Positions 612 through 16,546 of a stretch of DNA of 35,289 bases are shown here, piece after piece. This DNA is from a virus. How positions within the stretch are numbered: the stretch's first letter is position 1; every line of letters begins with the position of its first letter. Location: positions 1 to 35,289 of the IMG/VR virus record IMGVR_UViG_3300022752_000206. One strand, written 5' to 3'. The position numbers were made by a program, and so were the translations under genes. The notes under the pieces were generated by a model. The model ran no database searches. It saw only the letters and a program-made list of their open reading frames with translations, and was not told the DNA's origin.

Positions 612-637
612 GTACCTGTCCTTTTGTCATTGAGACA

Positions 638-646
638 ATTATATCA
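638..646 (-). promoter_or_regulatory. Extended -10 promoter with nested inverted repeat
   Basis: On the minus strand this reads TGATATAAT, an extended -10 (TGn plus TATAAT), 27-35 bases before the ATG at 611. No clear -35 is present. Directly downstream lies TTGTC-TCAAT-GACAA, a 5-bp inverted repeat placed over the expected transcription start, which could bind a repressor. The motif TGATATA(A/G)T also occurs upstream of the gene starting at 5903. Confidence 0.5.
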
Positions 647-654
647 CAGGTTTG

Positions 655-2195: not shown

Positions 2196-2258
2196 GTATA
2201 CACCTCTCCTAGTTAGCCACGGAAGGACTGTATACCGCCTTCACCGCGGACGTCCTAC

Positions 2259-2567: not shown

Positions 2568-2572
2568 GTTAC

Positions 2573-2770
2573 CTAGTCCTCCAACTTAGTGTTCATAGTT
2601 ACATATCCAATTAGCTCGTCACCGATCTCGTTAGATCTTAGCTTCATCTCTGCAAGAGTAGGAAGTTCCTCGTTTTGATTATTCATTATTCTTCTCCACT
2701 CGTCTCTTGCCTTGTTAGTCACGTCGGCAAGGTCTGTTCCACGAACAATGAACTCTATCGTTACTCTCAT
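2573..2770 (-). CDS. Small hypothetical protein
   Basis: A 65-residue protein that I do not recognise. It opens with an alternating hydrophobic beta strand (MRVTIEFIV) followed by a helical, charged segment. The ATG overlaps the stop of the upstream gene by one base (TGATG), which supports coupled translation and a real gene. Confidence 0.65.
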   Translation of the reverse strand: MRVTIEFIVRGTDLADVTNKARDEWRRIMNNQNEELPTLAEMKLRSNEIGDELIGYVTMNTKLED

Positions 2771-3189
2771 CAGCGAACTCTCTTCTGTAGCTGATATGGT
2801 GTGTAGTGGGTACCGTCAAGAACCGGCATCTTTCCGTCGTTTGACTTAAAGATGATGTCCCCGTAGCGAACTCCAACTACCTTTCCACGTCGTCCGTTGT
2901 GTATAACTCCGGTATCTCCGTCGTATGCATCACTCTTAACTCTTACCTCGTCACCGACAAGTATTGCGCCTGGCTGAGCATCAGCCCAGATCTCATCTGG
3001 CTTCTCCGGAAGTATCGAGTGGTTCACCGCAAGTTTTGTAAATAACTCGACGGTTTCCTTTACCTGGTTATTTGATAGTTTCATCTCATTCCAGGTTTCA
3101 AGTAGCTTAAGTATGGCAGTTCCAACGCCAACCTTAACCTTTGCCTCCTGCATTTGACCTTTAACCCAGTCAAAGTTTACCTCTGGCAT
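2770..3189 (-). CDS. Hypothetical protein with a KOW/SH3-like C-terminal barrel
   Basis: 139 residues starting MPEVNFDWVK. I chose the ATG at 3189 because AGGAGG lies six bases upstream. The longer reading to 3246 would overlap the neighbouring gene and has no comparable ribosome site. The N-terminal half is helical. The C-terminal half (GDEVRVKSDAYDGDTG, then GRRGKVVGVRYGD) looks like a small KOW/SH3-type beta barrel, often used to bind nucleic acid or protein. The function is unknown. Confidence 0.7.
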   Translation of the reverse strand: MPEVNFDWVKGQMQEAKVKVGVGTAILKLLETWNEMKLSNNQVKETVELFTKLAVNHSILPEKPDEIWADAQPGAILVGDEVRVKSDAYDGDTGVIHNGRRGKVVGVRYGDIIFKSNDGKMPVLDGTHYTPYQLQKRVR

Positions 3190-3190
3190 T

Positions 3191-3670
3191 TTATTCCTCC
3201 TCGTCCTTTGGTAGACACTTGTTGCACATCTCAGGTTGCTTACCAACCCCTACGTCATCAATTGCACGGTAGCAAACTATACACTTGACACCCTTGCTTT
3301 TTACTACGTATCCTTCTAGTTGTCTTTTCTTGTTCTTTTCCATTTTCTCAAGATATAGACGATCAAGTACCTCGTCTGTTCCACCAGCCGCAACGATTAT
3401 GTTTGCGACAAAGTGAAGAACGTCAACCGCCTCCTTGATGATCTCCTCACGGTCTGCGTAAGGTTGATCGTGCTGCCAAGGTTTCCATGAGATTGCCTGG
3501 CGCATCTCTGCAAGTTCATCGTCAATCGCAAGCATGTTCCACCGCATATATTCAACTAACTTACGAATCTTGCGTGGATCATCACCTGCCATCTCATCAA
3601 AATCTATGAAATACACGTTCTTCTGTAGATCACGTGTTTTTCTTAGCCAACCTTCAAACAGTATTCCCAT
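3191..3670 (-). CDS. Dimeric dUTPase/dCTPase-type NTP pyrophosphatase with zinc tail
   Basis: A 159-residue all-alpha NTP pyrophosphatase. The metal-binding pattern is visible as DELAE (Glu52, Glu55), then WKPW, then KEAVDVLHF (Glu80, Asp83), as in the dimeric dUTPase family that includes T4 gp56 (dCTPase/dUTPase). It should hydrolyse a dNTP, most likely dUTP and possibly dCTP, to the monophosphate and pyrophosphate. The C-terminus adds a zinc-knuckle-like CIVC (130-133) and CNKC (149-152). The neighbouring glycosyltransferase-like genes and the dCMP-hydroxymethylase-like gene make dCTP removal an attractive role, since T4 uses this activity to keep unmodified cytosine out of its DNA. Substrate preference cannot be read from sequence. 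Confidence 0.8.
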   Translation of the reverse strand: MGILFEGWLRKTRDLQKNVYFIDFDEMAGDDPRKIRKLVEYMRWNMLAIDDELAEMRQAISWKPWQHDQPYADREEIIKEAVDVLHFVANIIVAAGGTDEVLDRLYLEKMEKNKKRQLEGYVVKSKGVKCIVCYRAIDDVGVGKQPEMCNKCLPKDEEE

Positions 3671-3672
3671 TG

Positions 3673-4695
3673 CTATGCCTTTCTACTAAATATCTCAAGT
3701 GAGTCTGATAGCATAACTGCCGCATCCCGCTTGTTTGGAATTGACTGTACGTATGTTTCTCTTTGTTCCTTTGCCAGCTTATTTCTTTCATCCGCCGACA
3801 TCTCCTCTATACTTGCCGCGATGTGAAGCCAAGGTTCTCCTAGGGCACCACTTTCACGCCAGTCAGTTGCAACCGGTGTAAGTGCATTTATTGATTGAAC
3901 TAGTCTATATGTCCACCAGGTTCCTCCGGTTTGATATGGACTAATAAGTGCACCTATTCCACTTGCGATCTGCGCGGAAACCTGTTCATCTGTCCAGCCC
4001 TTGTGCCACTTCATTGGAACGGTAGGACTTGATAGCGTCGCAAGTGTAGACTTAGTCCAGTTAGTTGAGAAGTTTTCAACCACCCACTTTTCACGACGTT
4101 CAATCTCAATTGGATCCTGCATCGTAAGTATATATGAATCTAGGTTTATACCTTTTATCGACGCGGCCGCACCTACAGGAAGTTGAGATATTACCTTTCC
4201 AGTTCCGGACCAAGGAAGAGACGGATACAAGGTTGTTGGCCAGGTATCCTCTAGTAGATAGTCAACAACACCCATCAGGTCATCAAGAACGCTAGGTGTA
4301 CTTGCGTGCATGTAACCCTTGCGGTATGAGTAAAAAGATTTTGTCATGTTCTGTGGATTCTTTGACATCGCGCGAAGGCTTGCGGTAATCCTCACAGGTT
4401 CAGGTGCGTCAATGTAAAGTGCAAGTTTATCAGAATCATGTAATACATCAATGACGTTTAACGCGCCGTATACGCGGTTGGCACTTAAACTTGTCAGTGG
4501 ACTTAGGCCAACAAGAACGTGATCGTACTCGTTTAGGTCAGACGCCTCCCAGGATATCTCCGGATCTGTTTGAACAACCTCGTGACCTTGAACTGTTAGG
4601 ACGTGTGATAGTAAACTTGCAAATGAAAGTGATCTTCTATTTGCGTCGGTAGATGCGTGCGGCGCGGACATTCCTGTTAATAAGATCTTACTCAT
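3673..4695 (-). CDS. Glycosyltransferase-like protein (GT-B type), copy 2
   Basis: A 340-residue protein related to the adjacent upstream gene. It opens with MSKILLTGMSAP, a Rossmann-like strand and loop, and has an early VLVGLSPLTSLSANRVYGAL block. The C-terminal half carries LISPYQTGGTWWTYRLV, then VATD and LGEPW, matching the neighbour's LSPPYPHAGSGWWRSRF, VTD and LGDP. This layout fits the sugar-nucleotide-binding half of a GT-B glycosyltransferase. The ATG overlaps the neighbour's stop (ATGA). Given the context, I infer that the pair glycosylates a modified base in phage DNA; a lipid or protein acceptor is possible. No known family symbol can be assigned. Confidence 0.65.
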   Translation of the reverse strand: MSKILLTGMSAPHASTDANRRSLSFASLLSHVLTVQGHEVVQTDPEISWEASDLNEYDHVLVGLSPLTSLSANRVYGALNVIDVLHDSDKLALYIDAPEPVRITASLRAMSKNPQNMTKSFYSYRKGYMHASTPSVLDDLMGVVDYLLEDTWPTTLYPSLPWSGTGKVISQLPVGAAASIKGINLDSYILTMQDPIEIERREKWVVENFSTNWTKSTLATLSSPTVPMKWHKGWTDEQVSAQIASGIGALISPYQTGGTWWTYRLVQSINALTPVATDWRESGALGEPWLHIAASIEEMSADERNKLAKEQRETYVQSIPNKRDAAVMLSDSLEIFSRKA

Positions 4696-5903
4696 GCACG
4701 TGTCCCGTCTGCGTTTAACTTAACGCCCTTGTCCTCGGCAACCGCACGTTCAATAATTCGGTTGCAGTGTTCAACAAACCTGTCATACGGTGGAATATAA
4801 GGTGCAAGTGCATTTCTCTGCGCAAGTGCAGCCTCTGCTAGTTCATCGGTGGACATCTTTTCAACGTCCGCGATCTTTAACTTATACGGATCACCTAGCG
4901 GATCACCCTCACCCTTGTCGGTAACAAGAATTGATCCAACGTGCGCCGCATATAAAAAGCGACTACGCCACCAGCCTGATCCTGCGTGTGGATACGGCGG
5001 AGAAAGAATTCCCCAGTGTCTGTTATAAAACTCAAGTACGTCCTTCTCCGTATCAAATCTTTGTCCACCTAGTTTTTTAATTAGCTTACGACTTCCCACG
5101 ATCTCAACCGGCCAGGTAGGTGTCTTTCTTTCAAGCCAGCCGTCATGTGGCATTAGAGCTCCAAGTACCCACGCGCGTTTCTTTTCCGTCGCCGCAAGTT
5201 CAGTTACACCCTGCATCGTCGGAACTACAGTCGCGGTTGGATCAAGTGCCTCGATCGGACCTACGTCACTTGGCATGCGCCTACGCACGATTGAACGATC
5301 ACCAAACGAGTACATCGGACAGACCGGAACCATACCCGCTGCCCACCGTGCGTCTATAAGATCAGCCGCGGCTTGAACAAGACGCTTCTCCCAAGGTTTA
5401 ATGTTCTCATCGTTATCCATCATGTAGTAGCGCTCGATGTAGCACTTCTTTGCCGCGTCTGGATTTGCCTGTTTAATTCTTTCAAGTGCAGCCTCGATGT
5501 CCGCGCGACTAAAATACGTTGCGCCTTCATCACCGCGATGCTCGGTTCCAACTAAAAGATGCTTGTACAACATCTGTGGTTTACGAATTAGTGCACGTGC
5601 TCCGTTAAATACGGTGTTCGTCTGCCAATCATCAAAGAAACCTACGCAGGGAATACCTGATGAAAGTGCGTATAACGCACCCATCGCACCTTGACGTCCG
5701 TTAAGTGAGTTTAACGGTGCAAGATTGATCCATAGAACGTCATATGAGGACAGATCCTCGCCAGGTGTGATCTTACGCCAGTCAACTTCATGTCCTGACT
5801 CACGCAGCGCCTTAACAATAGACGCAGGCACGTCAATCTTTTGAATCGTACGTTTTTCCGTGTTGATCTGCAACGCGGTAAAACCACTAACCAATACTTT
5901 CAT
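4692..5903 (-). CDS. Glycosyltransferase-like protein (GT-B type), copy 1
   Basis: A 403-residue paralogue of the next gene. The N-terminal domain has MKVLVSGFTALQ and VLWINLAPLNSLNGRQGAMGAL. The C-terminal domain has GILSPPYPHAGSGWWRSRF, then GSILVTDKGEGDPLGDPY, and an alpha-helical end with TDELAEAALAQRNALAPY. It is about 60 residues longer than its partner, mostly in the middle. It heads a short operon whose promoter-like region contains an inverted repeat (5938-5966). The ATG is preceded by AAAGG. Two tandem paralogues could add two sugars in sequence, or act as a heterodimer. Acceptor and donor are unknown; DNA glycosylation is inferred from context. Confidence 0.67.
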   Translation of the reverse strand: MKVLVSGFTALQINTEKRTIQKIDVPASIVKALRESGHEVDWRKITPGEDLSSYDVLWINLAPLNSLNGRQGAMGALYALSSGIPCVGFFDDWQTNTVFNGARALIRKPQMLYKHLLVGTEHRGDEGATYFSRADIEAALERIKQANPDAAKKCYIERYYMMDNDENIKPWEKRLVQAAADLIDARWAAGMVPVCPMYSFGDRSIVRRRMPSDVGPIEALDPTATVVPTMQGVTELAATEKKRAWVLGALMPHDGWLERKTPTWPVEIVGSRKLIKKLGGQRFDTEKDVLEFYNRHWGILSPPYPHAGSGWWRSRFLYAAHVGSILVTDKGEGDPLGDPYKLKIADVEKMSTDELAEAALAQRNALAPYIPPYDRFVEHCNRIIERAVAEDKGVKLNADGTRA

Positions 5904-5937
5904 AATCCACTACCTTTCGTCTAAGTAGATTTGGAAT

Positions 5938-5966
5938 GTCACCTAGACTATATCAGAATAGGTGAC
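5938..5966 (-). promoter_or_regulatory. Extended -10 promoter inside an 8-bp inverted repeat
   Basis: Perfect 8-bp arms GTCACCTA and TAGGTGAC flank a 13-base spacer. On the minus strand the spacer contains TGATATAGT (plus positions 5947-5955), an extended -10 almost identical to the one before the gene starting at 611. A -10 enclosed by symmetric arms is a classic repressor-operator layout. It lies 35-63 bases before the ATG of the first glycosyltransferase-like gene, in the only real gap (5904-5984) of this stretch. Confidence 0.55.
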
Positions 5967-5984
5967 AAACCAGACTTACTTAGA

Positions 5985-6512
5985 TTAGAACGGTGACGCT
6001 GGTGGCGCTGCCGGTGCTGCTGCCGCAACCGGAGCAGCGGCAGGTGCCGGTGCTGGTGCAGGAGCTGGTGCAGCCGCAGGTGCTGGAGCAGACGATGCCG
6101 CTGTTACACCTGGGTAATATTGCTTGATCTCATTTTTCTTCTGACCTTGCCAGGTACGAGATGAGATCTGCGCACGAAACGCACGACCACGAATTGCCTG
6201 CTCAATCTGAGCGTTTGATGGATTGGTTGAGAAAAATTCACGACCAAGTCCAAGTGCATGCATCTTACGGAAGAACATTCCTAAAGCTGCACTGTTGTCA
6301 GGTGTAACAACTAGGTTATCCCATACAAGACGTTTTGCATGTGCACCGTTTTGTACCTGTGCCTTTATGGCAAACATTGTTTTACCAGATTGTGACACCT
6401 TTGCGGTAGCTTCAACTACAACTAGGTCGTAGTCGCCATCCGGTAGTGGATCATACCCTGCCGATACTTCACCGGCGTCTTTTACTAAATCGCCCCAATT
6501 AAGTGTACTCAT
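5985..6512 (-). CDS. Single-stranded DNA-binding protein, DUF669-like
   Basis: 175 residues. The N-terminal 130 residues match the phage DUF669 layout: GYDPLPDGDYDLVVVEA, then SGKTMFAIKAQV, ending in a conserved basic strand region. The last 40 residues are an Ala-Pro repeat ending ASPF, a flexible linker and tip like those of SSB proteins, though without the usual acidic stretch. It is expected to coat single-stranded phage DNA during replication and recombination. It follows the Sak4-like ATPase by six bases, the usual pairing in phages. Confidence 0.75.
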   Translation of the reverse strand: MSTLNWGDLVKDAGEVSAGYDPLPDGDYDLVVVEATAKVSQSGKTMFAIKAQVQNGAHAKRLVWDNLVVTPDNSAALGMFFRKMHALGLGREFFSTNPSNAQIEQAIRGRAFRAQISSRTWQGQKKNEIKQYYPGVTAASSAPAPAAAPAPAPAPAPAAAPVAAAAPAAPPASPF

Positions 6513-6518
6513 TGTTGG

Positions 6519-7286
6519 CTATTTTCCTTTCGCTGTAGTTGTTGCTTGTGTTTTTGGACCAAATACCATATCCAACATGCGTTCAATTCCAAGGTTCTCT
6601 TGTTCTACGACCTTTCCAAGTCGTCCTTGAACGCGTTCTCCTGCCTCGTATTCGTTCGTACGTTCTACGTACATACGACGAACCTTGTAGGGAGGTTGTA
6701 GTGGATCTGGGTTTGGCATTGTCTCGACAGTGACCGCGCCGAGAATATCATAGAAGTATGGTGCTTGAATTGCAAGCTGTCCTTGCAGGTATGGACGTGA
6801 ACGACCATCTGTTCCTGGACGTGCCATTGCTGTTAACACAACTGCCTCCAGCGGTTGTGTTGGGTGCATTGTAAGATCGCGTAGATCACGTAGAAGAGCT
6901 CCCATGTGACGAAGTAACTCGCCCCACTGTTGCATCTTCATCTGTTCGGTTCCTGCGATCGAATCCATGCACTTTACCTGAAGTTCAGATATTGAGTCAA
7001 TAATAAGTGACTTGAATTGGTGTTTTCCAGTTTGTAACCACTGGAATGTTTTAAGAACTACGTCGTAGTCACGAACATTAACTACAACTGTATCCCAGCT
7101 GCCGTCGGCAACTGGTGGTTCTTCTCTAATTGGGTCCCAGTACTTTACGGTGATAGGTAGGAATCGATGCCCACCCTCAACGTCGAGCATGAGACGTGGA
7201 TACGGTGCGGTAACGGCAAAGGTTGATTTACCAACCTTTGATTCACCGTAAACCATGATAGTCAACGAACGTTGTACGTCAGACAT
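6519..7286 (-). CDS. Sak4-like RecA-fold ATPase (single-strand annealing/recombinase)
   Basis: 255 residues from the ATG at 7286, which has AAAGGA seven bases upstream; a GTG one codon earlier is the alternative. Walker A is YGESKVGKST near residue 18. A Walker B-like strand, SLIIDSISEL, follows near residue 95. The short single-domain RecA core resembles phage Sak4 proteins, which promote strand annealing with their SSB. The SSB gene lies directly downstream and a Cas4/RecB-type nuclease directly upstream, giving a recombination cassette. Confidence 0.8.
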   Translation of the reverse strand: MSDVQRSLTIMVYGESKVGKSTFAVTAPYPRLMLDVEGGHRFLPITVKYWDPIREEPPVADGSWDTVVVNVRDYDVVLKTFQWLQTGKHQFKSLIIDSISELQVKCMDSIAGTEQMKMQQWGELLRHMGALLRDLRDLTMHPTQPLEAVVLTAMARPGTDGRSRPYLQGQLAIQAPYFYDILGAVTVETMPNPDPLQPPYKVRRMYVERTNEYEAGERVQGRLGKVVEQENLGIERMLDMVFGPKTQATTTAKGK

Positions 7287-7325
7287 CACTGTTTCCTTTC
7301 ATCTCTTTAGTAAGTTGGCGTAGCA

Positions 7326-8258
7326 TTAGTCTGCACTGCCTTTCTTTTCTTCTACCCCGTAGTATGCGTACGGATTAGAAACCTCAAATGCGTCTTCAAT
7401 CGCAGCCTCAGCCGCACTTCCATCGTCAAACATCGGACAGATGGTGAAGAACTGGCACTTCCACTTGCAATCACGTGAAGGACGAGGATACGCAACAAAG
7501 CGATGATCTCCTCCTTCGTCAAGTGCCTTTCGTGTGTTTAACATGTCACTAAGTGTTCCATGAATTCTTTGCCAAAACGATCTAAGTGCAAATACGTTGT
7601 GTCGTACCTCAAGTTGCTCGTAAAACGGTGGACGCGCGTTGGCAGAACGCTTAACCTTCTTTAACATTGTGAAGATACCACCCTCAGAACGTTCACCTTC
7701 CTTGTTCTGTGCTGTCTCTAACATCATATATGTAAGAATCTGCTCGTTCATGTGTGCCATGCTTGAGAAGTCGGTAAATGAGCCGCCAACTGTCTTAAAG
7801 TCACGGAACATACGAACACCGTCAGCCTTACGACGAACGCGCATGTCGATCTTTCCTTGAAGTACCACAGAATTATCCAGTAAAGGCATTGAGATAATTT
7901 CCTCGGTTGAGATCATCTCTAACTCTGCGTCAATTCCATTTTCCTCAACCCACTGTAGGTAACCCTCAAGCATGATGCGTCCAAGCTCTGCCTCTGACTC
8001 AAGATCATAAGTATCACGATACGCCTCAACCAGTATCTTTTTATCGTTATCAACAAGTTGTGCGTGCGCATCAAGAAGTGGTATGTTCTTTGAGTAGTAC
8101 ATATCAAGTGCCTCGTGAATACGTGAACCAAGTGCAAGTGCACCCGTCATCTGCTTAGACTTTGGCTGTAGTCTACGGTAGTAACTTAACCACCACTTTC
8201 TACGGCAGTCCTTATATGTTTGTACCTCAGAGTTTGAGATATGTAGTGGCTCGGTCAT
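7326..8258 (-). CDS. Cas4/RecB-type PD-(D/E)XK exonuclease with iron-sulphur motif
   Basis: 310 residues. The nuclease core shows His49, then GKIDMRV (Asp138) and FRDFKT (Asp153, Lys155), followed by a QxxxY-like QILTYMM. One early cysteine (Cys18 in YKDCRRKWW) plus three late ones (Cys264, Cys268, Cys274 in CKWKC...C) form the split four-Cys arrangement of Cas4/AddB proteins, which hold a 4Fe-4S cluster. It probably resects DNA ends for recombination or degrades host DNA. The ATG overlaps the helicase stop (ATGA). No CRISPR genes are nearby, so this is the stand-alone phage version. Confidence 0.87.
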   Translation of the reverse strand: MTEPLHISNSEVQTYKDCRRKWWLSYYRRLQPKSKQMTGALALGSRIHEALDMYYSKNIPLLDAHAQLVDNDKKILVEAYRDTYDLESEAELGRIMLEGYLQWVEENGIDAELEMISTEEIISMPLLDNSVVLQGKIDMRVRRKADGVRMFRDFKTVGGSFTDFSSMAHMNEQILTYMMLETAQNKEGERSEGGIFTMLKKVKRSANARPPFYEQLEVRHNVFALRSFWQRIHGTLSDMLNTRKALDEGGDHRFVAYPRPSRDCKWKCQFFTICPMFDDGSAAEAAIEDAFEVSNPYAYYGVEEKKGSAD

Positions 8259-11146
8259 AGGTTTCCTGCCTTATCGTCCTTTAGTAGTGTAAGTAACTTA
8301 TCCTTGTCGCGAACTATCTGTTCAAAGTTATCGGCCTTTGTCTCAAGTACCTGGATAACACGTTCCTCAATAGTTCCCTCTGTTACGTAGTCCGTAACGA
8401 TGATCGAGTCATGAATCTCAGATCCAATACGGTGAACACGGTCTAGTGCCTGACGATGATCAACTAGTGACCAAGGTCGTTGTAACATGATTAAACGTCT
8501 TGCCGCGGTTAAAGTAATTCCAACTCCTCCAGCCTGTGCGGTAAACAGAATCCACTTGATCTTTCCTGCCTGAAAGTCATCAACCGCCTGTTGGCGTTCA
8601 TCATCTGTTTGAGCGCCGGTTATAAGACCATGCGCAATTTTTTCCTTGGTTAACGCCGCACTTAAAAGATATATAAGTTGTCGTGATACCGCGCATACCG
8701 CAACAGAGTCATTTCCAAAGTCACCATTTTTTATGTCGTCCATAAGTGCGTCAACCTTACATGAAGGATCAGCAAGTATTGCCTTGATCTCACCTGTCTC
8801 CTCGTTTGCCGCGATCTCTGCGTATGAGCTTGCAAACTGTAAGAGACGAATAGTCTGCGTTAGTGCGCTAGGTGCGGTAATTGCCTCGCCACCCTCTAGC
8901 TCCGCGATCATCATGTCACGCATCTGGTCATAAGCCTTCTTTTGTTTTGTGCTCATCTCAACGTCACGACGTTCAAACATCATTTCCGGCAACCATGGAA
9001 GTACCTTTGCCTTTAACATGCGTCTCATTCTTGGATTTAACGCGGCATAAAACTCAGGTTCCATGTGTGGCTTTATTCCTAAAACCATCATTCCACCAAA
9101 TGCGTTAAGCATTGTGTTAACCATGCGATCAATCCAGCGTGTCTTACTTGGCCACTCCTCAGGACTTAACCAGTGAAGAATAGGCCACAGGTCAACTACT
9201 GTATTTGCAATAGGCGTTCCTGTTAGAGCAAATCGAACATCTGCATCACCTGTTGCAGCCCATAAGGCTCGGGACTGCTTACTCTTTGGCTCTTTGCTTC
9301 TATGACAGTTACGAACTAAAACTTTATTAGCAAAATAATTGCCTGTAGAAGTTGTTATTGAGTAGACAGTTGTTGTATTTTTTGAATAACTATCTCGGCA
9401 CACCTGCTCGTATCTTTGTGAACTTCTGAGTTCCAAAAGCGGATGATGGTCCAATCCATGCTTTCCAATTTCTTGCTTCGAACTACATCTGCAGCTTTTC
9501 TTTCTTGATGATGGTGTACTCCACCGTCTACTTCTACTGCCAATTTTATCTCCGGAAATCCAATGTCTAAAAATGCGCAAGTAGTTCCAGTGTTTCCCGG
9601 AAAGTTGAATCGAACTAACCATTCTTTTTCGTGCGGAGGCAGCCTTTCTGATAACATTTTCACCTCTGGAGAAGTCCTCCTTCTGTTGATACTCATTCCA
9701 GCTGCTGCTCTCTGCCATCCACGCTTCCCATTGGCTGAACGAATTGCTGGATCCATATTCTTGAAAGGGTTGCTTTCTGATAAAAGATGTCGCCTCACCG
9801 CTTGGTACAGTTTGCTCTCTGGGTCCAACATGTGCTTTGACATTGTCCTTGAGCGAGATTCTCGAACTCCAGGCTGATCTGCTCTCCACAGTTGCACACA
9901 TCTTCTTGTGCAAAATCTTGAAGTTTTCTTCTGGTAAGGTGGCTGATACAACTTTTTGCACCACTCGCAATTCTTTACTGGTTGTAGAGTTCTTCTTGAT
10001 GGAGTTTTTGAGTACGCCTTCTTTCCATTTGCTCCCGCTGAACAGCGCTTTGAACAATAAACTCTTCCCCTGTGTGTTGTTAAAGACTCTTTGCATTTGA
10101 ATTCTTGGTGACACATCTTGCATTGTTTTACTATCAATGGCATACAGCACATCACCTTCTACTAAGTCTCCTAGGGGGCGGTATCCTTCACCCTTTACAT
10201 AGAAAGGGTGGTTTGGAGTTGCTCCCCACTCGGTTACTATTGTATCACTATTTCGGTTCATCGTATCAAGTACTGTCGACAAAACTACTTTATTTTTATT
10301 ATGATCATAACCCCAAATTTGATCTCCTGGTTTTAACTGATCTATAGCCTTAAATCCATGTGGCGTGCTTATTGGCGTTTCCTTTACAAAGCACTCGTCT
10401 GCAACTACAGCCTTAAAGTCAATTCCGTTTAGTTCTCGCTTGTGAACCTCGCAACGATTTTCTGTGACCTTCTCGTCGTGTCCGCCGCAGTCCTTACAGC
10501 GGGCAAGTGCAACAGATCCGTATGGTGCAAGTCTTGAGTGACCGCGTAGAGATTCCCAGTTGATAATAAACACCTGCGCAGGTTCATCAAATTGCTTACG
10601 TCTTTGAGTTGCTGAGCCCTTAATTATCTGTATATCCAGTCCTGGCCACCACTTGTCAAACTCGCGCTTCCAGTTTTTCTTAAGGGTGTTAGGGCAGACG
10701 ATCAACGCCGGAAATATAGGTGTTCCATTTTCCTGTAATAGCTTAAGTGCTCGTATTGCCTGGGCTGTCTTTCCTAGTCCAGGTTCGTCGGCAAGTAGGG
10801 CACGTCTGGCCGTCGCTAGAAACTTTACACCTGCTCTTTGATGCGGGAATAGGTCCTCGTTTAGCGGGTCCTCAAGGGACTCTAGTTCACGTAATTCGTT
10901 CGCTGGGGTAATTCTATTGGCAAGCTCGTTGCCTGCCCACTCGGTCAACCTAGGGCCAATAACAAGGTCATTCTTAAAGGTAGATCGAAGCGCAAGACAT
11001 GTAGCCCAGCTCGTTGGGACGCTCCAAACCATGGTGGTCGCATCCCACTTGGCTCCAGGGATACTCTTACAAAGTTCCTTAAAGCGCCACTCAGCATTAA
11101 TAACTATATGCTTGTTTGTCTCGCTCAACTCCACGCTAACGGGCAA
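8255..11146 (-). CDS. SNF2-family helicase interrupted by an intein
   Basis: 963 residues as translated; about 601 after removal of a 362-residue intein (residues 252-613). The N-terminal extein has a beta-rich lead-in, the Walker A ADEPGLGKT (120-127) and a CxxC...C patch. The intein splits motif II between DE and CH. The C-terminal extein has LTGTPIAN (motif III), GGVGITLTAA (motif V) and QALDRVHRIGS (motif VI), which is SNF2 rather than UvrD type. It should be an ATP-driven DNA translocase for replication, repair or remodelling. The start is TTG with AAAGGA eight bases upstream. The +1 residue after the intein is the Cys of DECH, so splicing should be needed to rebuild the ATPase site. Confidence 0.93.
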   Translation of the reverse strand: MPVSVELSETNKHIVINAEWRFKELCKSIPGAKWDATTMVWSVPTSWATCLALRSTFKNDLVIGPRLTEWAGNELANRITPANELRELESLEDPLNEDLFPHQRAGVKFLATARRALLADEPGLGKTAQAIRALKLLQENGTPIFPALIVCPNTLKKNWKREFDKWWPGLDIQIIKGSATQRRKQFDEPAQVFIINWESLRGHSRLAPYGSVALARCKDCGGHDEKVTENRCEVHKRELNGIDFKAVVADECFVKETPISTPHGFKAIDQLKPGDQIWGYDHNKNKVVLSTVLDTMNRNSDTIVTEWGATPNHPFYVKGEGYRPLGDLVEGDVLYAIDSKTMQDVSPRIQMQRVFNNTQGKSLLFKALFSGSKWKEGVLKNSIKKNSTTSKELRVVQKVVSATLPEENFKILHKKMCATVESRSAWSSRISLKDNVKAHVGPREQTVPSGEATSFIRKQPFQEYGSSNSFSQWEAWMAESSSWNEYQQKEDFSRGENVIRKAASARKRMVSSIQLSGKHWNYLRIFRHWISGDKIGSRSRRWSTPSSRKKSCRCSSKQEIGKHGLDHHPLLELRSSQRYEQVCRDSYSKNTTTVYSITTSTGNYFANKVLVRNCHRSKEPKSKQSRALWAATGDADVRFALTGTPIANTVVDLWPILHWLSPEEWPSKTRWIDRMVNTMLNAFGGMMVLGIKPHMEPEFYAALNPRMRRMLKAKVLPWLPEMMFERRDVEMSTKQKKAYDQMRDMMIAELEGGEAITAPSALTQTIRLLQFASSYAEIAANEETGEIKAILADPSCKVDALMDDIKNGDFGNDSVAVCAVSRQLIYLLSAALTKEKIAHGLITGAQTDDERQQAVDDFQAGKIKWILFTAQAGGVGITLTAARRLIMLQRPWSLVDHRQALDRVHRIGSEIHDSIIVTDYVTEGTIEERVIQVLETKADNFEQIVRDKDKLLTLLKDDKAGNL
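9308..10393 (-). mobile_element. Intein in the helicase DECH box
   Basis: Residues 252-613 of the helicase reading frame. Block A starts at Cys252 (CFVKETPISTPHGF) and continues with LKPGDQIWGYD. Block B is WGATPNHPF (the TxxH motif). The C-terminal blocks are VYSITTSTGNYFANK and VLVRN, with terminal Asn613 followed by extein Cys614. The usual penultimate His is Arg here, a known variation. The splicing parts total only about 110 residues. The long centre (roughly residues 340-590) has no LAGLIDADG or HNH motif in this frame and reads as Ser/Arg/Lys-rich filler, because a real gene occupies another frame there. Confidence 0.93.
9355..10155 (-). CDS. Overprinted Vsr/DUF559-type homing endonuclease nested in the intein
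   Basis: A 266-residue protein, wholly inside the intein and one frame away from it. Two zinc-finger-like units come first: C12xxC15 with C34xxxC38, and C63xxC66 with C82xxxC86. A DUF559/Vsr-like nuclease fold follows: TSPEVKMLSERL, FLDIGFPEIKLAVEVDGGVHH (Asp197, Glu208, Asp210) and DWTIIRFWNSEV. A stop codon lies two codons upstream of the GTG at 10155, so translation must begin locally. Starts at 10155 (GTG), 10152 (ATG) and 10143 (ATG) are possible. AGGAG lies 12 bases before the GTG, and AGAAGG lies 11 bases before the ATG at 10143. It probably cuts intein-free helicase alleles to drive homing. The protein looks far more natural than the same DNA read in the intein frame. Confidence 0.87.
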   Translation of the reverse strand: MMCCMPLIVKQCKMCHQEFKCKESLTTHRGRVYCSKRCSAGANGKKAYSKTPSRRTLQPVKNCEWCKKLYQPPYQKKTSRFCTRRCVQLWRADQPGVRESRSRTMSKHMLDPESKLYQAVRRHLLSESNPFKNMDPAIRSANGKRGWQRAAAGMSINRRRTSPEVKMLSERLPPHEKEWLVRFNFPGNTGTTCAFLDIGFPEIKLAVEVDGGVHHHQERKAADVVRSKKLESMDWTIIRFWNSEVHKDTSRCAEIVIQKIQQLSTQ

Positions 11147-11167
11147 CTGATCGATCCTTTCGTCGTT

Positions 11168-11184
11168 ATGTATACATACTAACA
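11168..11184 (-). promoter_or_regulatory. Candidate promoter with palindrome upstream of the helicase
   Basis: On the minus strand TGTTAGTAT (plus 11176-11184) fits an extended -10, TGn followed by TAGTAT. It runs into the perfect 10-bp palindrome ATGTATACAT (11168-11177). It lies about 25-40 bases before the TTG start of the helicase gene and just after a terminator-like hairpin, so a fresh transcription start here is sensible. No clear -35 was seen. Confidence 0.4.
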
Positions 11185-11205
11185 GGAAACTGCAGAAAAG
11201 TAATT

Positions 11206-11231
11206 AAAAACTCACCTAGTAAGTAGTTTTT
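11206..11231 (-). terminator. Rho-independent terminator-like hairpin after the resolvase
   Basis: On the minus strand, directly after the resolvase stop, ACTTAC-TAG-GTGAGT can pair as six base pairs with one G-T, followed by TTTTT. Flanking AAAAAC upstream could lengthen the stem. The U-run and position suit an intrinsic terminator between the resolvase and the helicase. Confidence 0.55.
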
Positions 11232-11692
11232 TACTGAAGTAGGCGCATTGGCTTCCAACCTATCTTTACAAACCTCAATAATCCGTGTCTTATGGCGTCA
11301 AGTGCGTGTCCGTCACCTCCGCGGTGCCAATATTCCAGTTTTTTAAGTTTATCGTTCGCAAACATACCCTTTGCGTCGGAAGGTGACTGGAAGATTATTG
11401 ACTCCGGATCAATCTCATTATCCAGCATGATTTGGCGCAATATCCCGATCTGCTCCAGCGAGTAGGGTGCCTGGGAGTTCTTTACGGTCTGCATGTTTAT
11501 GGTAAATCTTTCACAGACTATATCTATAGGAATATCTTTATCTTTTGACATGGTGATTGCGTCACGTATGGGCTTGGCGTACTCGCGCATCTGATACTCA
11601 CCTGACGAGATAAGCCTAGGCTCGGTTCCGTCATATTCAAACAGCGCGACTCCACTTGCCTTTCCTGGGTCAACCGCTAGAACTAACTTCAT
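11231..11692 (-). CDS. RuvC-like Holliday junction resolvase
   Basis: A 153-residue RNase H-fold nuclease. The acidic catalytic set is visible as AVDPGKASG (Asp8), IVCERF (Glu61) and GGDGHALDAIRHG (Asp127, Asp132, with His129). RuvC-type enzymes cut four-way junctions that form during phage replication and recombination, freeing DNA for packaging. The ATG overlaps the polymerase stop (ATGA), so it is coupled to replication gene expression, and a terminator-like hairpin follows. Confidence 0.85.
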   Translation of the reverse strand: MKLVLAVDPGKASGVALFEYDGTEPRLISSGEYQMREYAKPIRDAITMSKDKDIPIDIVCERFTINMQTVKNSQAPYSLEQIGILRQIMLDNEIDPESIIFQSPSDAKGMFANDKLKKLEYWHRGGDGHALDAIRHGLLRFVKIGWKPMRLLQ

Positions 11693-13512
11693 CTGTACTT
11701 TGCTCCCCAGTTGTCAAGAGGCCCATCTATACCAGCCGACAAAGGAACGTCCCAGCCCTCACGCGTTGTCATGCACTCCTGAACAACCTTCATGATCTCC
11801 TGTGCGTCCTTACGCGGAGCGTTCAGAACAATTTCATCGTGCACCGGAACGATTAGGTACTCTGTTAGATCTGCCTGGTCAAGTTTTACTAGGTTAGCCT
11901 TAAATATCTCAGCCGCGCCTCCTTGGATTAAATAATTCAACGCAGAATATGCCCTATCATCATCGCAAGGAAGCCTACGTCCTGTCCAGGTGTATACGTA
12001 CCCTTGTCCTTCAGCACGAATTCTACGCATCACAACATCTTCAATTTGTCGTTGAAACATAGTCATTCCAGGAAAACGTTTGTCAAATTCATCAGATGTA
12101 ATTTTCATTTGTTTCTCTGGCACACCTGCTGTTAAAGCTTGCTTAGCTATACCTGCACCATACAAACGTCCATAGATCATTCCTTTAATGAGTCCTCTAC
12201 GTCTATCTGATCGTTGGAAAGATGGGTCTTGATATACTTCACGACCAATGTCTGTGAAAGGATCTGAACCTGCTGCGTCAGCGTTGTTGAACAGTGATAT
12301 GAGATTTGGATCCTTTGACAGTGATGCTGCCATACGAAACTCAACCTGGTCAAGGTCTGATGTGATGATAACATGATCTTCATCCTTCGGTATAAACGCG
12401 GTGCGAACGGTGTCATCACCCTTTGGCAAGGTTTGCAGCGCTGGGTTTTGTATGGACATGCGACTTGTGCGGGCACCAAGTGTTTTTACAGATGGATGAA
12501 CAAATCCATTTACGTTATCATTTATAAAGTTTAGAAAATATGTGTTTGCAAGCTTATCTGCCTTACGCTGTTTTAGTGTAACCTCGGCTAGTTTCTTTAC
12601 CTCGTCATTACCGGTTATCGTAAGTAACTTAAGTTGGTCCTTGGTTACCGCCTTGTTACCTGTAGGTGTAAACTCTGTAATCTCTGCGCCTAGATCTTCA
12701 AAAAGACGAACAAGCTGCATGTTACTTGATATTGAGACGCCGTTGTAGGTCTGCTTTGCCCAGGTTTTTACCGACTCGCTATACTGAGTTAACTCGTCGT
12801 ACTTACGTCTTGAGTAATCAAGATCAATTCTTGCCCCGTTTATCTCCATGCGTGTAACGATACGTCTTGTGGCCATCTCAAGTTCATAAGCCTTGTTGTA
12901 TGGACCTCCTGGGCCGCATTTTTCATAAAACATCTCCCAGATACGCATGGTAAGAACAGTATCAAGAGCTCCGTATGCCCAGTAAGGCTGAAAGTTCGTA
13001 GGAACAGTTCCCCACGTCCATCCATTTTTAATAAGTTCAATGTCAAGTGATTCCTGCAATGCTACCGCACGTCCGTCAACGTGAAGAGCAGCTAATCTTT
13101 TTAACGCACCTGATCCTAGAGGATCAATTATGTGCGCTTGTATCATTGTGTCGTGTGCCCTGTGCCACGGAAGTTTCCAGTTAGATTGAATATCAAACCA
13201 ACGAGCCTCAAACGCAATGTTGTGACAGACTATAGGACCATCAAACTTATCCATAGCCTCATAGAAGACACCTGACCACTCCTTCCAAGGAATTGCCCAA
13301 CCTTGCTTGCCGTCTCCAACCTGTACAAGTCTTAGTTGACCGTGCCAGGGAGATAGTGCATGATCTCTCTCACCTCCTGGAAGCTCGCCGGTCTCGGTGT
13401 CAATCGCAATTGCGTTGTGCGGACGACGCTCACCTAGCCAGGAGATAAACTCACGTGCCTTGTCAACGTTGTCAACGAGGTGAAGTTGAACGTCCTGTAA
13501 ATTATCTGTCAA
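11689..13512 (-). CDS. Family A DNA polymerase with 3'-5' exonuclease domain
   Basis: 607 residues, the phage replicative polymerase. The exonuclease domain (about 1-200) has AIDTETG (Asp38, Glu40), HNIAFEARW (Glu102 where Asp is usual) and YGALDTV. The polymerase domain has motif A TSDLDQVEFR (Asp386), motif B RRGLIKGMIYGRLYG (Lys443, Tyr447) and motif C VPVHDEIV near residue 570. There is no N-terminal 5' nuclease domain, as is common for phage enzymes. Tyr447 aligns with Phe762 of E. coli Pol I, the residue that is Tyr in T7 polymerase and relaxes discrimination at the sugar. The start is TTG at 13512 with AGAGGA six bases upstream, overlapping the deaminase stop. Confidence 0.93.
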   Translation of the reverse strand: MTDNLQDVQLHLVDNVDKAREFISWLGERRPHNAIAIDTETGELPGGERDHALSPWHGQLRLVQVGDGKQGWAIPWKEWSGVFYEAMDKFDGPIVCHNIAFEARWFDIQSNWKLPWHRAHDTMIQAHIIDPLGSGALKRLAALHVDGRAVALQESLDIELIKNGWTWGTVPTNFQPYWAYGALDTVLTMRIWEMFYEKCGPGGPYNKAYELEMATRRIVTRMEINGARIDLDYSRRKYDELTQYSESVKTWAKQTYNGVSISSNMQLVRLFEDLGAEITEFTPTGNKAVTKDQLKLLTITGNDEVKKLAEVTLKQRKADKLANTYFLNFINDNVNGFVHPSVKTLGARTSRMSIQNPALQTLPKGDDTVRTAFIPKDEDHVIITSDLDQVEFRMAASLSKDPNLISLFNNADAAGSDPFTDIGREVYQDPSFQRSDRRRGLIKGMIYGRLYGAGIAKQALTAGVPEKQMKITSDEFDKRFPGMTMFQRQIEDVVMRRIRAEGQGYVYTWTGRRLPCDDDRAYSALNYLIQGGAAEIFKANLVKLDQADLTEYLIVPVHDEIVLNAPRKDAQEIMKVVQECMTTREGWDVPLSAGIDGPLDNWGAKYR

Positions 13513-13982
13513 TTTTTATCCTCTAGTATTGTTACCTCGATATTACACTTCCTGTAGTACTCAAGTACAATCTCAGGTTGACGGTGTTTTGCCCTTGAAA
13601 GAATTCTCATAACAACTCTTGATACTCCTGAGTTAGAAACAAGCTTTGCGCACTGCATACACGATGCGTCTGTGATGTAGATCGTTCCTCCCTCCATTCT
13701 TGACCTGTCTACGTATAAAAGTGCGTTTGATTCCGCGTGTATCGCAGGGCATGTGTCATACATGTTGTCAAGAGGTGTTACTCCCTGTGCACGTGGACAC
13801 CAGTTTATACAGTCTCCCTCAACAGGATAGTCCTTTGCAGGTCCGTTGTAACCTGTAGAACTTATGCGTTGGTCCTTTGAGACAACAACCGCGCCGATCT
13901 GTGCACGGCTACAGCGTGAACGTAGTGCCACCGTGTCGGCAACGCGCATCCAAATCTCATCCCAGGACGGTCTATTGTTCAT
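13509..13982 (-). CDS. dCMP deaminase
   Basis: A 157-residue zinc-dependent cytidine-deaminase-fold enzyme that converts dCMP to dUMP. The zinc and catalytic motifs are CPAIHAESNALL (His82, Glu84) and SCMQC (Cys108, Cys111). An extended N-terminal region with a GYNG motif and further Cys/His residues is typical of dCMP rather than free-cytidine deaminases. In T4-like modified phages this enzyme works beside dCMP hydroxymethylase and supplies dUMP for thymine. The hydroxymethylase-like gene lies just upstream, separated by one small gene. Confidence 0.9.
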   Translation of the reverse strand: MNNRPSWDEIWMRVADTVALRSRCSRAQIGAVVVSKDQRISSTGYNGPAKDYPVEGDCINWCPRAQGVTPLDNMYDTCPAIHAESNALLYVDRSRMEGGTIYITDASCMQCAKLVSNSGVSRVVMRILSRAKHRQPEIVLEYYRKCNIEVTILEDKN

Positions 13983-14169
13983 CTAGCGGACCAAATAACG
14001 ACGTAACCATGACGTTGGATATAAGAAACAATGCATCACGGCGACTAAATCCTGCAAGTCTTAACTCCTCATACATGACGTGAAGTGTTATTGCCGCCTC
14101 GCGCAGAGGAGGAACAAAGGTTTTTTCTACCTCAAGACGGTCCTTATCACTGTCATCATTTTTGTTCAT
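13972..14169 (-). CDS. Small hypothetical protein between nucleotide enzymes
   Basis: A 65-residue protein that I do not recognise. It starts MNKNDDSDKD with an acidic and charged head, followed by two amphipathic helices (REAAITLHVMYEELRLAG and RRDALFLISNVMV). It overlaps the deaminase start by 11 bases and the upstream gene's end by 14, with AAGGA upstream of its ATG. The packing supports a real coupled gene. Confidence 0.6.
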   Translation of the reverse strand: MNKNDDSDKDRLEVEKTFVPPLREAAITLHVMYEELRLAGFSRRDALFLISNVMVTSLFGPLDEQ

Positions 14170-15028
14170 TTTTTAATTTTTCCTTGTTATTTTCAATTGC
14201 CTTCCTCATCGCTTTCGTGTACCACGTCTCGGTTATGTCAATTATGTTGTATACCTCTTCATTGTTTTTATCAACCGCGGTAAGAGCCATCAACGCAAAG
14301 TTTTGTACCTCTTTCCAGGTTACCGCAACTATGTTAGGTATGTTGACGTATTTGTCTGTGTATTTTAAGTTTTCAGCCATGTCATAGTGCTGCTCGTAGA
14401 TATGAAGTGATCCAACGTGGTGGGTGTACTTACCTGGCTTGATGCCTAAAACAGAAGCCATGGCAATTTGAACGCGGGTAAACTGGAAGAAGTCATACGC
14501 CGCACCTAGCCAAACGTCGTTTGATCTCATGTAGACTGACATGTTTAACTTGTTATCACGAATTCTAAACTGGTGAAGTATTGTGCATGGATAATCACGC
14601 TTACTTGGAAGTAGATCAAGCTTAGGATCCCAGATTGTAACTACGGCCTGTCTTGAGTCTGGATCATTTTTTAGACGCTCAATTACAGGACCGTATTGAT
14701 CAACTGTTCTCAATCCGTATGCTCCATGAAATAAACCGTTGTCCTCGGTGTAGTTCTTAAACTGTGGTCCGATGTCCATGACAAGTTTTGGCATAGATAT
14801 ACCTGCAAGTAACTGACAAGCCTCAACTGCTCCGATACCTGCGACCGTTCCGCGTCCTACGCCCAGAGGCAGTGTGTTGTGAACGTCGTCAATGCGAATT
14901 ACCGCGTCCTCAATCTCACGGGTCTTCATTCCGCGTGGAGCAGCCTCCCTGCCGTGCTTGAGAACGTGCTGAACAAGATCAACGTAACCGTTAACCGCAT
15001 CAGGTATGTTTATTACCGCAGTATCCAT
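14156..15028 (-). CDS. Thymidylate-synthase-family enzyme, dCMP hydroxymethylase-like
   Basis: A 290-residue member of the thymidylate synthase fold. Phosphate-binding DSRQAVV (Arg126), catalytic YPC (Cys148), RSNDVWLGAAYD (ending at Asp179) and SLHIYEQHYD (His209, Tyr211) are all present. Classical enzymes have PFN at the end of the RS.D...G block, and that Asn reads the uracil ring. Here it is Asp179, 31 residues after the Cys. T4 gp42 dCMP hydroxymethylase has the same Cys148 and Asp179. It should therefore act on dCMP, adding hydroxymethyl (or possibly methyl) from methylene-tetrahydrofolate. The start ATG has AAAGGA upstream and overlaps the kinase stop. A plain thymidylate synthase is less likely. 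Confidence 0.85.
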   Translation of the reverse strand: MDTAVINIPDAVNGYVDLVQHVLKHGREAAPRGMKTREIEDAVIRIDDVHNTLPLGVGRGTVAGIGAVEACQLLAGISMPKLVMDIGPQFKNYTEDNGLFHGAYGLRTVDQYGPVIERLKNDPDSRQAVVTIWDPKLDLLPSKRDYPCTILHQFRIRDNKLNMSVYMRSNDVWLGAAYDFFQFTRVQIAMASVLGIKPGKYTHHVGSLHIYEQHYDMAENLKYTDKYVNIPNIVAVTWKEVQNFALMALTAVDKNNEEVYNIIDITETWYTKAMRKAIENNKEKLKNEQK

Positions 15029-16026
15029 GGGCTGTCCTTTTCTAGGTTGTCATACGCACTTTTTTCAATTGCCTGTCCGTATAGTTCCTTGTCCTTGTGG
15101 TGAAACCTTCTTACGTACTGTGGGTGAGGAAGAACGTCGTAGTGCTTTGGGTTTATCTCTGTTCGCATGATTGCCTTCTCCGCAAGACGACCAAGCACAA
15201 CTATTCGTGGACGGTTAAGGTCAAGCCAAAGATCGTTTAGGTTAAACTCAAAGTCATTTGCGTTTATGATTCCAACTCTCTTCCAAAAGGTGTCGGGAAG
15301 AGCTGAAAGTAAGAAATCTCCGGAGTTTCCATCAACAGGCATAAAGGGGAGCTGGGTCTCCTCGCCATATCTTTTAACGATATTTCGTCGATCACCGATG
15401 AGAAGTACGTCAGGATCTGGAGACCCGATGTAGCTGTTGTACCTAGTTATATACCTCGTATCGTTAAGTTTTTTCTCAGCCGCGTCTACAACCTTCACCG
15501 CAAGCTCGTCAACCTTGTCAAGACTGTTAGGACCAGGACTAAGTTTATCGGTAAGTGAGGCGGAAAGTATTGATGCAATTTCATACTGTTCAAGAATATA
15601 CTCAAGCTCGTTAACGTCAACAAAGTCATCACCGCGAGATCCTAGGCGAGACTTGATGACCTCAAGTGGTTGATAGAGCCAAAACTCTGCAACGCCTCGT
15701 GATAGTAAAAATAACTCTGTCCAACGCCAGCCTGCCTTTCCAAGTAGGCCATATCCATCTAAATTTGTGTGTGCTCGTTTTAATGGAGCATATGTGATCT
15801 CGCCCCAGTGCCAGCGATCTGAGATGATCGTCTCACTATTAAAGTTTGTTTCCTCACAGGACGTTACGTATTCATTTAATACCCAGCGGCGTGTCTCCTC
15901 AAGAGGACGCCCCTTGTGGGACATCGTTATTTTTCTATCAGGATAGCGTCTATTAACCTCGTTCTCAACCGCAGAGATTAAAGAGGTCTTGCCTGAGGCG
16001 TCCGTTCCTTCAACTACTATAAACAT
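15013..16026 (-). CDS. Deoxynucleoside monophosphate kinase fused to a UDG-fold domain
   Basis: 337 residues in two parts. Residues 1 to about 185 are a thymidylate-kinase-type P-loop kinase: FIVVEGTDASGKTS (Gly7-Ser15), SDRWHWGE and a late helical lid. Residues about 200-337 look like a uracil-DNA-glycosylase-superfamily fold: PDVLLIGD, LPFMPVDGNSGDFLL, GIINAND, PRIVVLG and a late LPHPQYVRR (His301). The usual first motif (GE.PG or GQDPYH) is replaced by GDRRN, so the second domain may bind a base without excising it. The kinase would raise dTMP or hydroxymethyl-dCMP toward the triphosphate. The gene sits immediately upstream of the hydroxymethylase-like gene and overlaps it by 16 bases. Confidence 0.75.
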   Translation of the reverse strand: MFIVVEGTDASGKTSLISAVENEVNRRYPDRKITMSHKGRPLEETRRWVLNEYVTSCEETNFNSETIISDRWHWGEITYAPLKRAHTNLDGYGLLGKAGWRWTELFLLSRGVAEFWLYQPLEVIKSRLGSRGDDFVDVNELEYILEQYEIASILSASLTDKLSPGPNSLDKVDELAVKVVDAAEKKLNDTRYITRYNSYIGSPDPDVLLIGDRRNIVKRYGEETQLPFMPVDGNSGDFLLSALPDTFWKRVGIINANDFEFNLNDLWLDLNRPRIVVLGRLAEKAIMRTEINPKHYDVLPHPQYVRRFHHKDKELYGQAIEKSAYDNLEKDSPWILR

Positions 16027-16054
16027 ATCGTCCTTTGGTATGCGTCGTGTAAAA

Positions 16055-16065
16055 ATTATATAACA
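16055..16065 (-). promoter_or_regulatory. Candidate promoter upstream of the kinase operon
   Basis: The minus strand has TGTTATATAAT in the 49-base gap before the kinase ATG. It can be read as TATAAT, or as an extended -10 of TGT plus TATATA. No convincing -35 was seen. It would start the nucleotide and modification operon from kinase through polymerase. Confidence 0.4.
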
Positions 16066-16075
16066 AAAAAGCTAA

Positions 16076-16546
16076 TTAAGGAATAAGCTCCACCCTGTAG
16101 ATTGACTCTATACCTTTATCTACCTTTGATGCATCCTCAAGCAGGCGCTCTGCAACCTTAGTTAGGTAGCGTGCACCTCCGTCATCATACTTGTACAACG
16201 CCTCAAGCACGGCGTTTGGATCGTCACTTACCTGTGCCCAGTAGCGGTACTTCTCAGGAAAGATCATCACCGCACTTGGAGATGGACGACACTGCTCGCA
16301 TGGAACCGCGTTATCACTTAAGTCGTCAGCGTTTATCTCGGTAAGGTTGTAGCGCTTAACTAGGTCACACGCCGCGCCGTGATAGATTATTGAGACGCCG
16401 ACGCGGGACAACACGTATGAACCGTTATCAGTTTTGTATAAAGCAAACTCGATCCAGCGAGTTGAGTCACGTCTCCACGACGATGACTCGCTGAGAAGTT
16501 TACCGCTAAACTGTAAGGTTCTAGCGCTGTCCTTTACCTCAAACAC
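16076..16546 (-). CDS. Hypothetical protein
   Basis: A 156-residue soluble protein that I do not recognise. It has a single CEQC pair near the middle (VPCEQCRP) and a beta-rich N-terminus (FEVKDSARTLQFSGKLL). The start is GTG at 16546, with AGAGGG ten bases upstream. It follows the small gene ending at 16550 by three bases and ends before the kinase promoter region. It lies at the border between structural and nucleotide genes. Confidence 0.65.
   Translation of the reverse strand: MFEVKDSARTLQFSGKLLSESSSWRRDSTRWIEFALYKTDNGSYVLSRVGVSIIYHGAACDLVKRYNLTEINADDLSDNAVPCEQCRPSPSAVMIFPEKYRYWAQVSDDPNAVLEALYKYDDGGARYLTKVAERLLEDASKVDKGIESIYRVELIP

Follow-up and report, generated by a model that had tools for sequence, protein, structure and literature searches.

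A predicted T4-like pathway for cytosine replacement and DNA glycosylation in a phage genome fragment, with glycosyltransferases of a separate sequence family

We analysed a window of 35,289 bases, a fragment comprising positions 1 to 35,289 of the virus record IMGVR_UViG_3300022752_000206, with attention to six genes at 3191-16026 on the minus strand. These encode a MazG/dUTPase_2-type pyrophosphatase, two glycosyltransferase-like paralogues (GT1 and GT2), a deoxycytidine monophosphate (dCMP) deaminase, a dCMP 5-hydroxymethylase-like enzyme and a deoxynucleoside monophosphate (dNMP) kinase. Together they are predicted to form a pathway for cytosine replacement and DNA glycosylation that works like that of T4, a reading to which we give a probability of about three in four. 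The phage and dozens of its close relatives very likely contain hydroxymethylated cytosine in place of ordinary cytosine, to which sugars would be added by a little-studied enzyme family.

In the proposed pathway, the pyrophosphatase would remove dCTP, yielding dCMP, which the synthase-family enzyme would combine with methylene-folate to give 5-hydroxymethyl-dCMP. The phage kinase, followed by a host kinase, would raise this product to hydroxymethyl-dCTP (hm-dCTP) for incorporation by the phage polymerase, and the deaminase would divert dCMP toward dTTP. After replication, GT2 and GT1 would add one or two sugars to 5-hydroxymethylcytosine (hmC), using a donor that is probably a host nucleotide sugar and plausibly a furanose, e.g. 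UDP-galactofuranose. From the genes we infer the catalytic roles, the presence of hmC in virion DNA, DNA as the acceptor, the sugar, the way in which GT1 and GT2 share the work, and a protective effect against restriction or CRISPR.

A conserved gene set and a dCMP-type active site

The large genes of the window lie on the minus strand, with an early block at approximately 84-16546 followed by structural genes. The early block is intact and mostly same-strand, and the six genes are full open reading frames (ORFs) at or within 3191-16026. The identical gene order was found again in dozens of other contigs, which is far beyond chance. Between close relatives, the ratio of non-synonymous to synonymous substitution rates (dN/dS) is ~0.04-0.15 for GT1, GT2, the hydroxymethylase, the kinase and the pyrophosphatase, with ~0.05 for GT1; this strong purifying selection indicates that all five are real genes. 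The initial annotation had listed the same six genes, and the set is borne out by the full ORFs, Pfam and PHROG matches, paralogy, purifying selection and gene order in dozens of contigs, although a C5-cytosine DNA methyltransferase and a uracil-DNA glycosylase (UDG)-like domain of the kinase had been overlooked. The idea that the pathway was assembled in one phage has to be given up, as the module is lineage-wide and occurs also in Actinomycetia phage DSL-LC01 and, as two clusters, in Gordonia phages.

The base that is made depends on the enzyme encoded at 14156-15028 (minus strand), a member of the thymidylate synthase family (PF00303, 1.6e-30); in the PDB its best relative is the CMP 5-hydroxymethylase MilA. 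In an alignment using E. coli ThyA numbering it has Cys146, Thr147, Asp169, Gly173, Asp177, Glu58 and Tyr94. The residues Asp177, Thr147, Asp169 and Gly173 reproduce the pattern of T4 gp42, in agreement with the T4-style dCMP hydroxymethylase route first proposed for this DNA. E. coli ThyA instead has Asn177/His147, and the dUMP hydroxymethylase of SPO1 has Asn177/Asn147, so that Asp177 sets the window enzyme apart from the SPO1 type. Asp177 and Thr147 are both kept in 66 of the 68 distinct rows counted, and the two exceptions are attributed to SPO1 and LuckyBarnes sequences among the loci, leaving all 66 relatives with the pair; Asp169 is found in 68/68 rows and Gly173 in 66/68. In the MetaGPA study, phage contigs with modified cytosine were best told apart from unmodified contigs by positions 177 and 147, the modified group having Asp177 (PMC8670742).

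These residues also bear on the possibility that the block represents ordinary nucleotide metabolism, with the synthase-family enzyme acting as a thymidylate synthase and the whole making dTTP only. A dCMP deaminase (13509-13982, minus strand; PF00383 2.4e-18, phrog_174 7.7e-42) and a kinase would suit dTTP supply, and many annotations of such enzymes do say thymidylate synthase. However, the window enzyme has Asp177/Thr147 rather than Asn177/His147, the C-terminal residues of thymidylate synthase fail to align in it, and glycosyltransferases are associated with it. We reject simple dTTP supply because of Asp177, and rate it as highly improbable.

The distinction between hydroxymethylation and hydroxylation is finer. 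RB69 has lately been re-described as making 5-arabinosyl-dC via 5-hydroxy-dCMP, and RB69-type phages have two arabinosyltransferases together with a synthase-family enzyme (PMC13390438). The base could thus be 5-hydroxy-dC as in RB69 and NP, with the two glycosyltransferases adding one arabinose and then a second, and it fits this view that a GT2 homologue, Rgz1 gp40, lies inside an RB69-like arabinose gene cluster. Yet RB69 ORF048 and Rgz1 gp33, which keep Asp177/Thr147, have Asn169 and Val173, where the window enzyme and its relatives have Asp169 and Gly173 like T4 gp42. We take these two positions to form the folate side of the pocket. If Asn169/Val173 define 5-hydroxy-dCMP synthase activity, as the sequences suggest, then hydroxymethylation is likelier than hydroxylation. 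Arabinose itself is disfavoured in that NTP_transferase is unmatched in the 11 relatives searched and RB69 ORF003c falls outside the GT2 family, no homology to GT1 or GT2 being found by hhalign or sequence comparison. No arabinose synthesis cluster was recognised in the window, where arabinose-phosphate isomerase was not searched for. In our view 5-hydroxy-dC is quite unlikely, and we hold with considerable confidence that the phage makes hydroxymethyl-dCMP.

LuckyBarnes (MF668275, locus 5456-7009) was published as having a predicted dCMP hydroxymethylase, yet its Asn177/Asn147 pair is the dUMP pattern, which makes 5-hydroxymethyl-uracil more likely in that phage. The same pair rules it out as the nearest precedent (PMC6588365); it is also absent among the records matched by GT1, and no Brevibacterium record is among those matched by GT2.

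The remaining enzymes have putative places in the T4-like pathway. The pyrophosphatase (3191-3670, minus strand) matches PF08761 dUTPase_2 at 1.4e-11 and phrog_18650 dUTPase at 5e-20, and its ELxE...ExVD motifs are conserved in 58 distinct relatives. This places it in the all-alpha dCTPase/dUTPase superfamily of a T4-type pathway; PF00692 dUTPase was not found in the window. Its closest PDB relatives are dUTPases (E 0.02-0.04), and we propose from sequence that it is a dCTPase converting dCTP to dCMP. For the kinase (15013-16026, minus strand) we see a PHROG match to thymidylate kinase (1.6e-11) and a model with pLDDT 93.7 whose fold is thymidylate-kinase/YorR-like (YorR 2axp, Z 18.4). The only consistent Pfam lead for its C-terminal domain (approximately residues 195-337; window 15013-15444) is the UDG superfamily, with PF03167 matches below cut-off both in the window (E 0.0035) and in four of seven relatives (0.0046-0.13). 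A family A DNA polymerase (11689-13512, minus strand; PF00476, 2.9e-55) would incorporate hm-dCTP.

The C5-cytosine DNA methyltransferase (936-2195, minus strand; PF00145, 4.2e-23) has a PPCS motif conserved among 34 distinct relatives, and a methyltransferase gene lies near MazG in the Gordonia phages and downstream in DSL-LC01. Its conservation would suit a TET route, in which cytosine is methylated in DNA, then oxidised and glycosylated. Here a dCMP-level enzyme is present instead; across the 35 kb window, itself a fragment, TET/JBP had no match, and in nine relatives nothing exceeded the cut-off, one contig giving a single sub-threshold fragment. We consider this route very improbable. Carbamoyltransferase PF02543, known from hmC carbamoylation (the 5cmdC of MetaGPA), was not found in the window or in nine relatives, all of which are fragments.

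A glycosyltransferase family and its possible donor

GT2 (403 aa, 4692-5903) overlaps the start of GT1 (340 aa, 3673-4695) by 4 bases, both on the minus strand. Their paralogy is seen in BLASTP (379 columns, E 2.5e-5), and both fall into one profile family. Neither gives any Pfam match at E up to 1, the T4 beta-glucosyltransferase (BGT, PF09198) and alpha-glucosyltransferase (AGT, PF11440) families included; GT2 matches only one PHROG family, of no known function, and searches of PDB chains with GT2 and with the family profile returned nothing meaningful. An AlphaFold model of GT2 from a 35-sequence alignment (pLDDT 80, pTM 0.79) shows two Rossmann-like halves. The first Foldseek hit to this model in the PDB is T4 BGT (1qkj; E 1.3e-6, 12% identity), and VIA-align gives Z 18.3 for T4 BGT (1nzd; rmsd 4.2, 303 residues) and Z 16.4 for T4 AGT. 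From these comparisons the predicted fold is GT-B, with T4 BGT among its nearest neighbours, though fold alone leaves the acceptor unset. The earlier remark that these enzymes are unlike the T4 types therefore stands for sequence but not for the predicted fold of GT2. With glycosyltransferases of non-T4 sequence, a sugar different from that of T4 is plausible.

Relatives of the two enzymes were found in diverse phages. The family includes both DSL-LC01 enzymes, Gordonia gene products, a protein of a Manatee Spring siphophage, and members in the T4-like phages Erwinia FBB1, Aeromonas 60AhydR15PP and Morganella Rgz1 and in the Kyanoviridae cyanophage C48C1. A dCMP-type enzyme is also held by seven named phages with a family member (DSL-LC01, FBB1, 60AhydR15PP, ctIqW946, Sixama, GMA2 and GodonK), and Rgz1 combines its member with the RB69-type synthase pattern. 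Relatives of gp42 with the T4 residue pattern occur in FBB1 (60% identity) and 60AhydR15PP (57%), and the T4 BGT and AGT families were not found in these two phages, with T4 as positive control. This indicates that the family can occupy the place of the T4 glucosyltransferases. That GT2 and GT1 glycosylate hmC in DNA is, in our assessment, probable. Neither this family nor galactofuranosyl-hmC was found described in the open-access literature searched, which is limited evidence of novelty.

A clue to the sugar comes from gene neighbours. A gene of the family adjoins one for UDP-galactopyranose mutase in DSL-LC01, FBB1, 60AhydR15PP and C48C1, with GLF matches in Pfam for DSL-LC01 (5e-30), 60AhydR15PP (6e-54) and C48C1 (6e-52); the FBB1 mutase is 62% identical to that of 60AhydR15PP. 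Such genes are scarce, as tblastn with the Aeromonas phage mutase gave matches in only 87 of 50,697 phage records. The gene pairs of FBB1, the Aeromonas phage and C48C1 may have a common origin, and we therefore take the number of independent associations as two to three rather than four. In Rgz1, the neighbour of the family member is the RB69-like arabinose cluster instead. In Lactobacillus phage ATCCB (3037-6092), three consecutive genes encode an enzyme of the dCMP type, a homologue of T4 BGT (31%, 1e-45) and a mutase, making this phage a separate candidate for galactofuranosyl-hmC. A galactofuranosyltransferase-like second enzyme has been suggested for Enterococcus phages VPE25/VFW, which have glycosylated DNA (PMC4999554). 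Together, the mutase neighbours, ATCCB and VPE25/VFW point to furanose donors for the family. For the sugar of the window phage we put a furanose forward tentatively. Equally tentative is the wider proposal that GT1 and GT2 represent a novel DNA furanosyltransferase family, spread over actinobacterial, T4-like and cyanobacterial phages, whose members would attach a furanose (galactofuranose or a different one, perhaps in the form of a disaccharide) to hmC, with a phage or host mutase supplying the donor and relatives swapping the cassette.

Several observations weigh against parts of this picture. The mutase was not found in ten large relatives (contigs of 65-136 kb), so that the donor would be host-made or the sugar a different one, and NTP_transferase had no match in the 11 relatives searched; these two results make the furanose case indirect for the window phage. 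An Epimerase domain is present in two of the ten large relatives. In the window, a fragment, no sugar-nucleotide gene was recognised, and the mutase family was not searched there. C48C1 (8001-10033) has the glycosyltransferase and mutase pair, and a thymidylate-synthase-family gene was searched for in it and not found. With complete replacement of cytosine, the conserved C5-cytosine methyltransferase would find its substrate scarce; replacement may therefore be partial, or the methyltransferase may act early or have another task. The hhalign comparison of the family with T4 BGT is weak (probability 26%), and in VIA-align SenB (Z 18.2) and PimA (Z 17.9), neither of them a DNA enzyme, tie with T4 BGT.

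A further explanation, which the structural tie favours, is that GT1 and GT2 have virion proteins or host wall polymers as their acceptors, with the nucleotide genes needed only for hydroxymethylation or dTTP supply. GT-B enzymes take many acceptors, and UDP-galactofuranose is a cell-wall precursor (PMC6630229). On the other side, the glycosyltransferase genes lie between replication genes and the putative dCTPase, apart from structural genes, and the family goes together with dCMP-type enzymes across unrelated phages, including the T4-like phages that lack BGT and AGT. In ATCCB, moreover, it is a true T4-BGT homologue that is paired with a mutase. We consider a protein or wall target unlikely, and retain DNA glycosylation as the preferred reading.

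An exchangeable slot among constant early genes

Across relatives, the genes for the kinase, hydroxymethylase, deaminase, polymerase, RuvC, helicase, PD-(D/E)XK nuclease, RecA-like ATPase and a DUF669 protein follow in constant order; a variable slot comes next, and then MazG. In the window, the 175 aa DUF669 protein (5985-6512, minus strand; PF05037, 1.4e-8) forms this constant border. GT2 and GT1 fill the slot in 116 locus records, many of them overlapping on the same contig; in one locus GT1 stands with an unrelated GT-B-like gene, and in two GT1 is alone. In five further loci, which end before MazG, an aminoglycoside-phosphotransferase-like kinase comes after this same GT-B-like gene, and three of the five also show a HAD phosphatase gene. 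Relatives of the GT-B-like gene are found among Gordonia proteins, of which two carry the annotation glycosyltransferase. In DSL-LC01 the slot comprises GT2, the mutase and GT1.

Every complete slot with GT2 also had GT1. As GT1 occurs with GT2, with the GT-B-like gene or alone, the constant member of the pair may be GT1, with GT2 as the one that varies. Outside the closest relatives, GT1 is the faster diverging across the same phages (33-66% identity, versus 65-88% for GT2). Exchange of glycosyltransferase cassettes amid constant surroundings is the pattern expected of an arms race, and would suggest that the sugar itself is under defence pressure.

Other features of the early block were recorded in passing. 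A MSMEG_6728-family or pyrimidine dimer DNA glycosylase-like gene lies at 84-611 (minus strand), and a 56% identical homologue follows the methyltransferase in DSL-LC01. The helicase ORF (8255-11146, minus strand) contains an insert of ~350 residues with Hint (intein) matches, which is absent from DSL-LC01. Nested in this insert, in the +1 frame, is an ORF (9355-10155, minus strand) for a 266 aa DUF559/Vsr-like endonuclease (PF04480, 9e-14). In Vibrio phages CP-T1 and 1.088.O, a large helicase/P-loop ORF contains a DUF559-type match, again offset by +1. It would be unusual for an intein to carry a homing endonuclease in an alternative frame, and no description of such a case was found in the literature searched. 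No tRNA or Rfam RNA was found in the window.

Significance and comparison with known systems

The DNA sugars named in the literature we found are glucose-based, except for the arabinose of RB69-type phages and the pentose of Thanatos. Where a genome with a dCMP hydroxymethylase also has a mutase gene next to that of a GT-B enzyme, a specific and cheap prediction follows, galactofuranosyl-hmC, which can be tested on isolated phages: Aeromonas 60AhydR15PP, phiAS4 and 25, Erwinia FBB1, Gordonia Sixama and Lactobacillus ATCCB. By analogy with known systems, the purpose of the sugar coat is probably to evade bacterial DNA-cutting defences. A swappable sugar slot would then bear on type IV restriction, on DNA-glycosylase defences and on escape from CRISPR, and new enzymes for hmC labelling could come from it.

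RB69 and NP (Mosigvirus), with 5-arabinosyl-dC, resemble the window phage in having two glycosyltransferases and a synthase-family dCMP enzyme, and Rgz1 links a GT2 homologue to an RB69-like cluster. They differ from it at residues 169 and 173, changed in RB69 ORF048 and kept in the window, and ORF003c is unrelated by sequence. VPE25/VFW (PMC4999554) are comparable as glycosylated-cytosine phages, of a Gram-positive host and with a possible galactofuranose link, but they use a T4-BGT homologue, and the role of galactofuranose was only speculated on there. The hydroxymethylase-BGT-mutase operon of ATCCB, of which no discussion was found in the literature searched, resembles DSL-LC01 in combining a dCMP-type enzyme and a GT-B glycosyltransferase with a mutase neighbour; its glycosyltransferase, however, is a T4-BGT homologue.

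Closer to the window are the Gordonia phages Sixama, GMA2, GodonK and Forza, which have the same glycosyltransferase family, MazG and a methyltransferase in one cluster and the hydroxymethylase elsewhere, and which differ in carrying extra glycosyltransferase genes. DSL-LC01 is syntenic, with orthologous enzymes, but has the mutase. No DNA chemistry was found for DSL-LC01 or the Gordonia phages in the literature searched. The T4 system for hmC and glucosyl-hmC (gp56, gp42, Cd, gp1, alpha- and beta-glucosyltransferase) has its counterparts here in the pyrophosphatase, the same hydroxymethylase active-site residues, the deaminase, a candidate kinase and the predicted GT-B fold of GT2. Unlike T4, the window encodes two paralogous glycosyltransferases of another sequence family, a thymidylate-kinase-like kinase with a UDG-like domain, a family A polymerase and a C5-methyltransferase.

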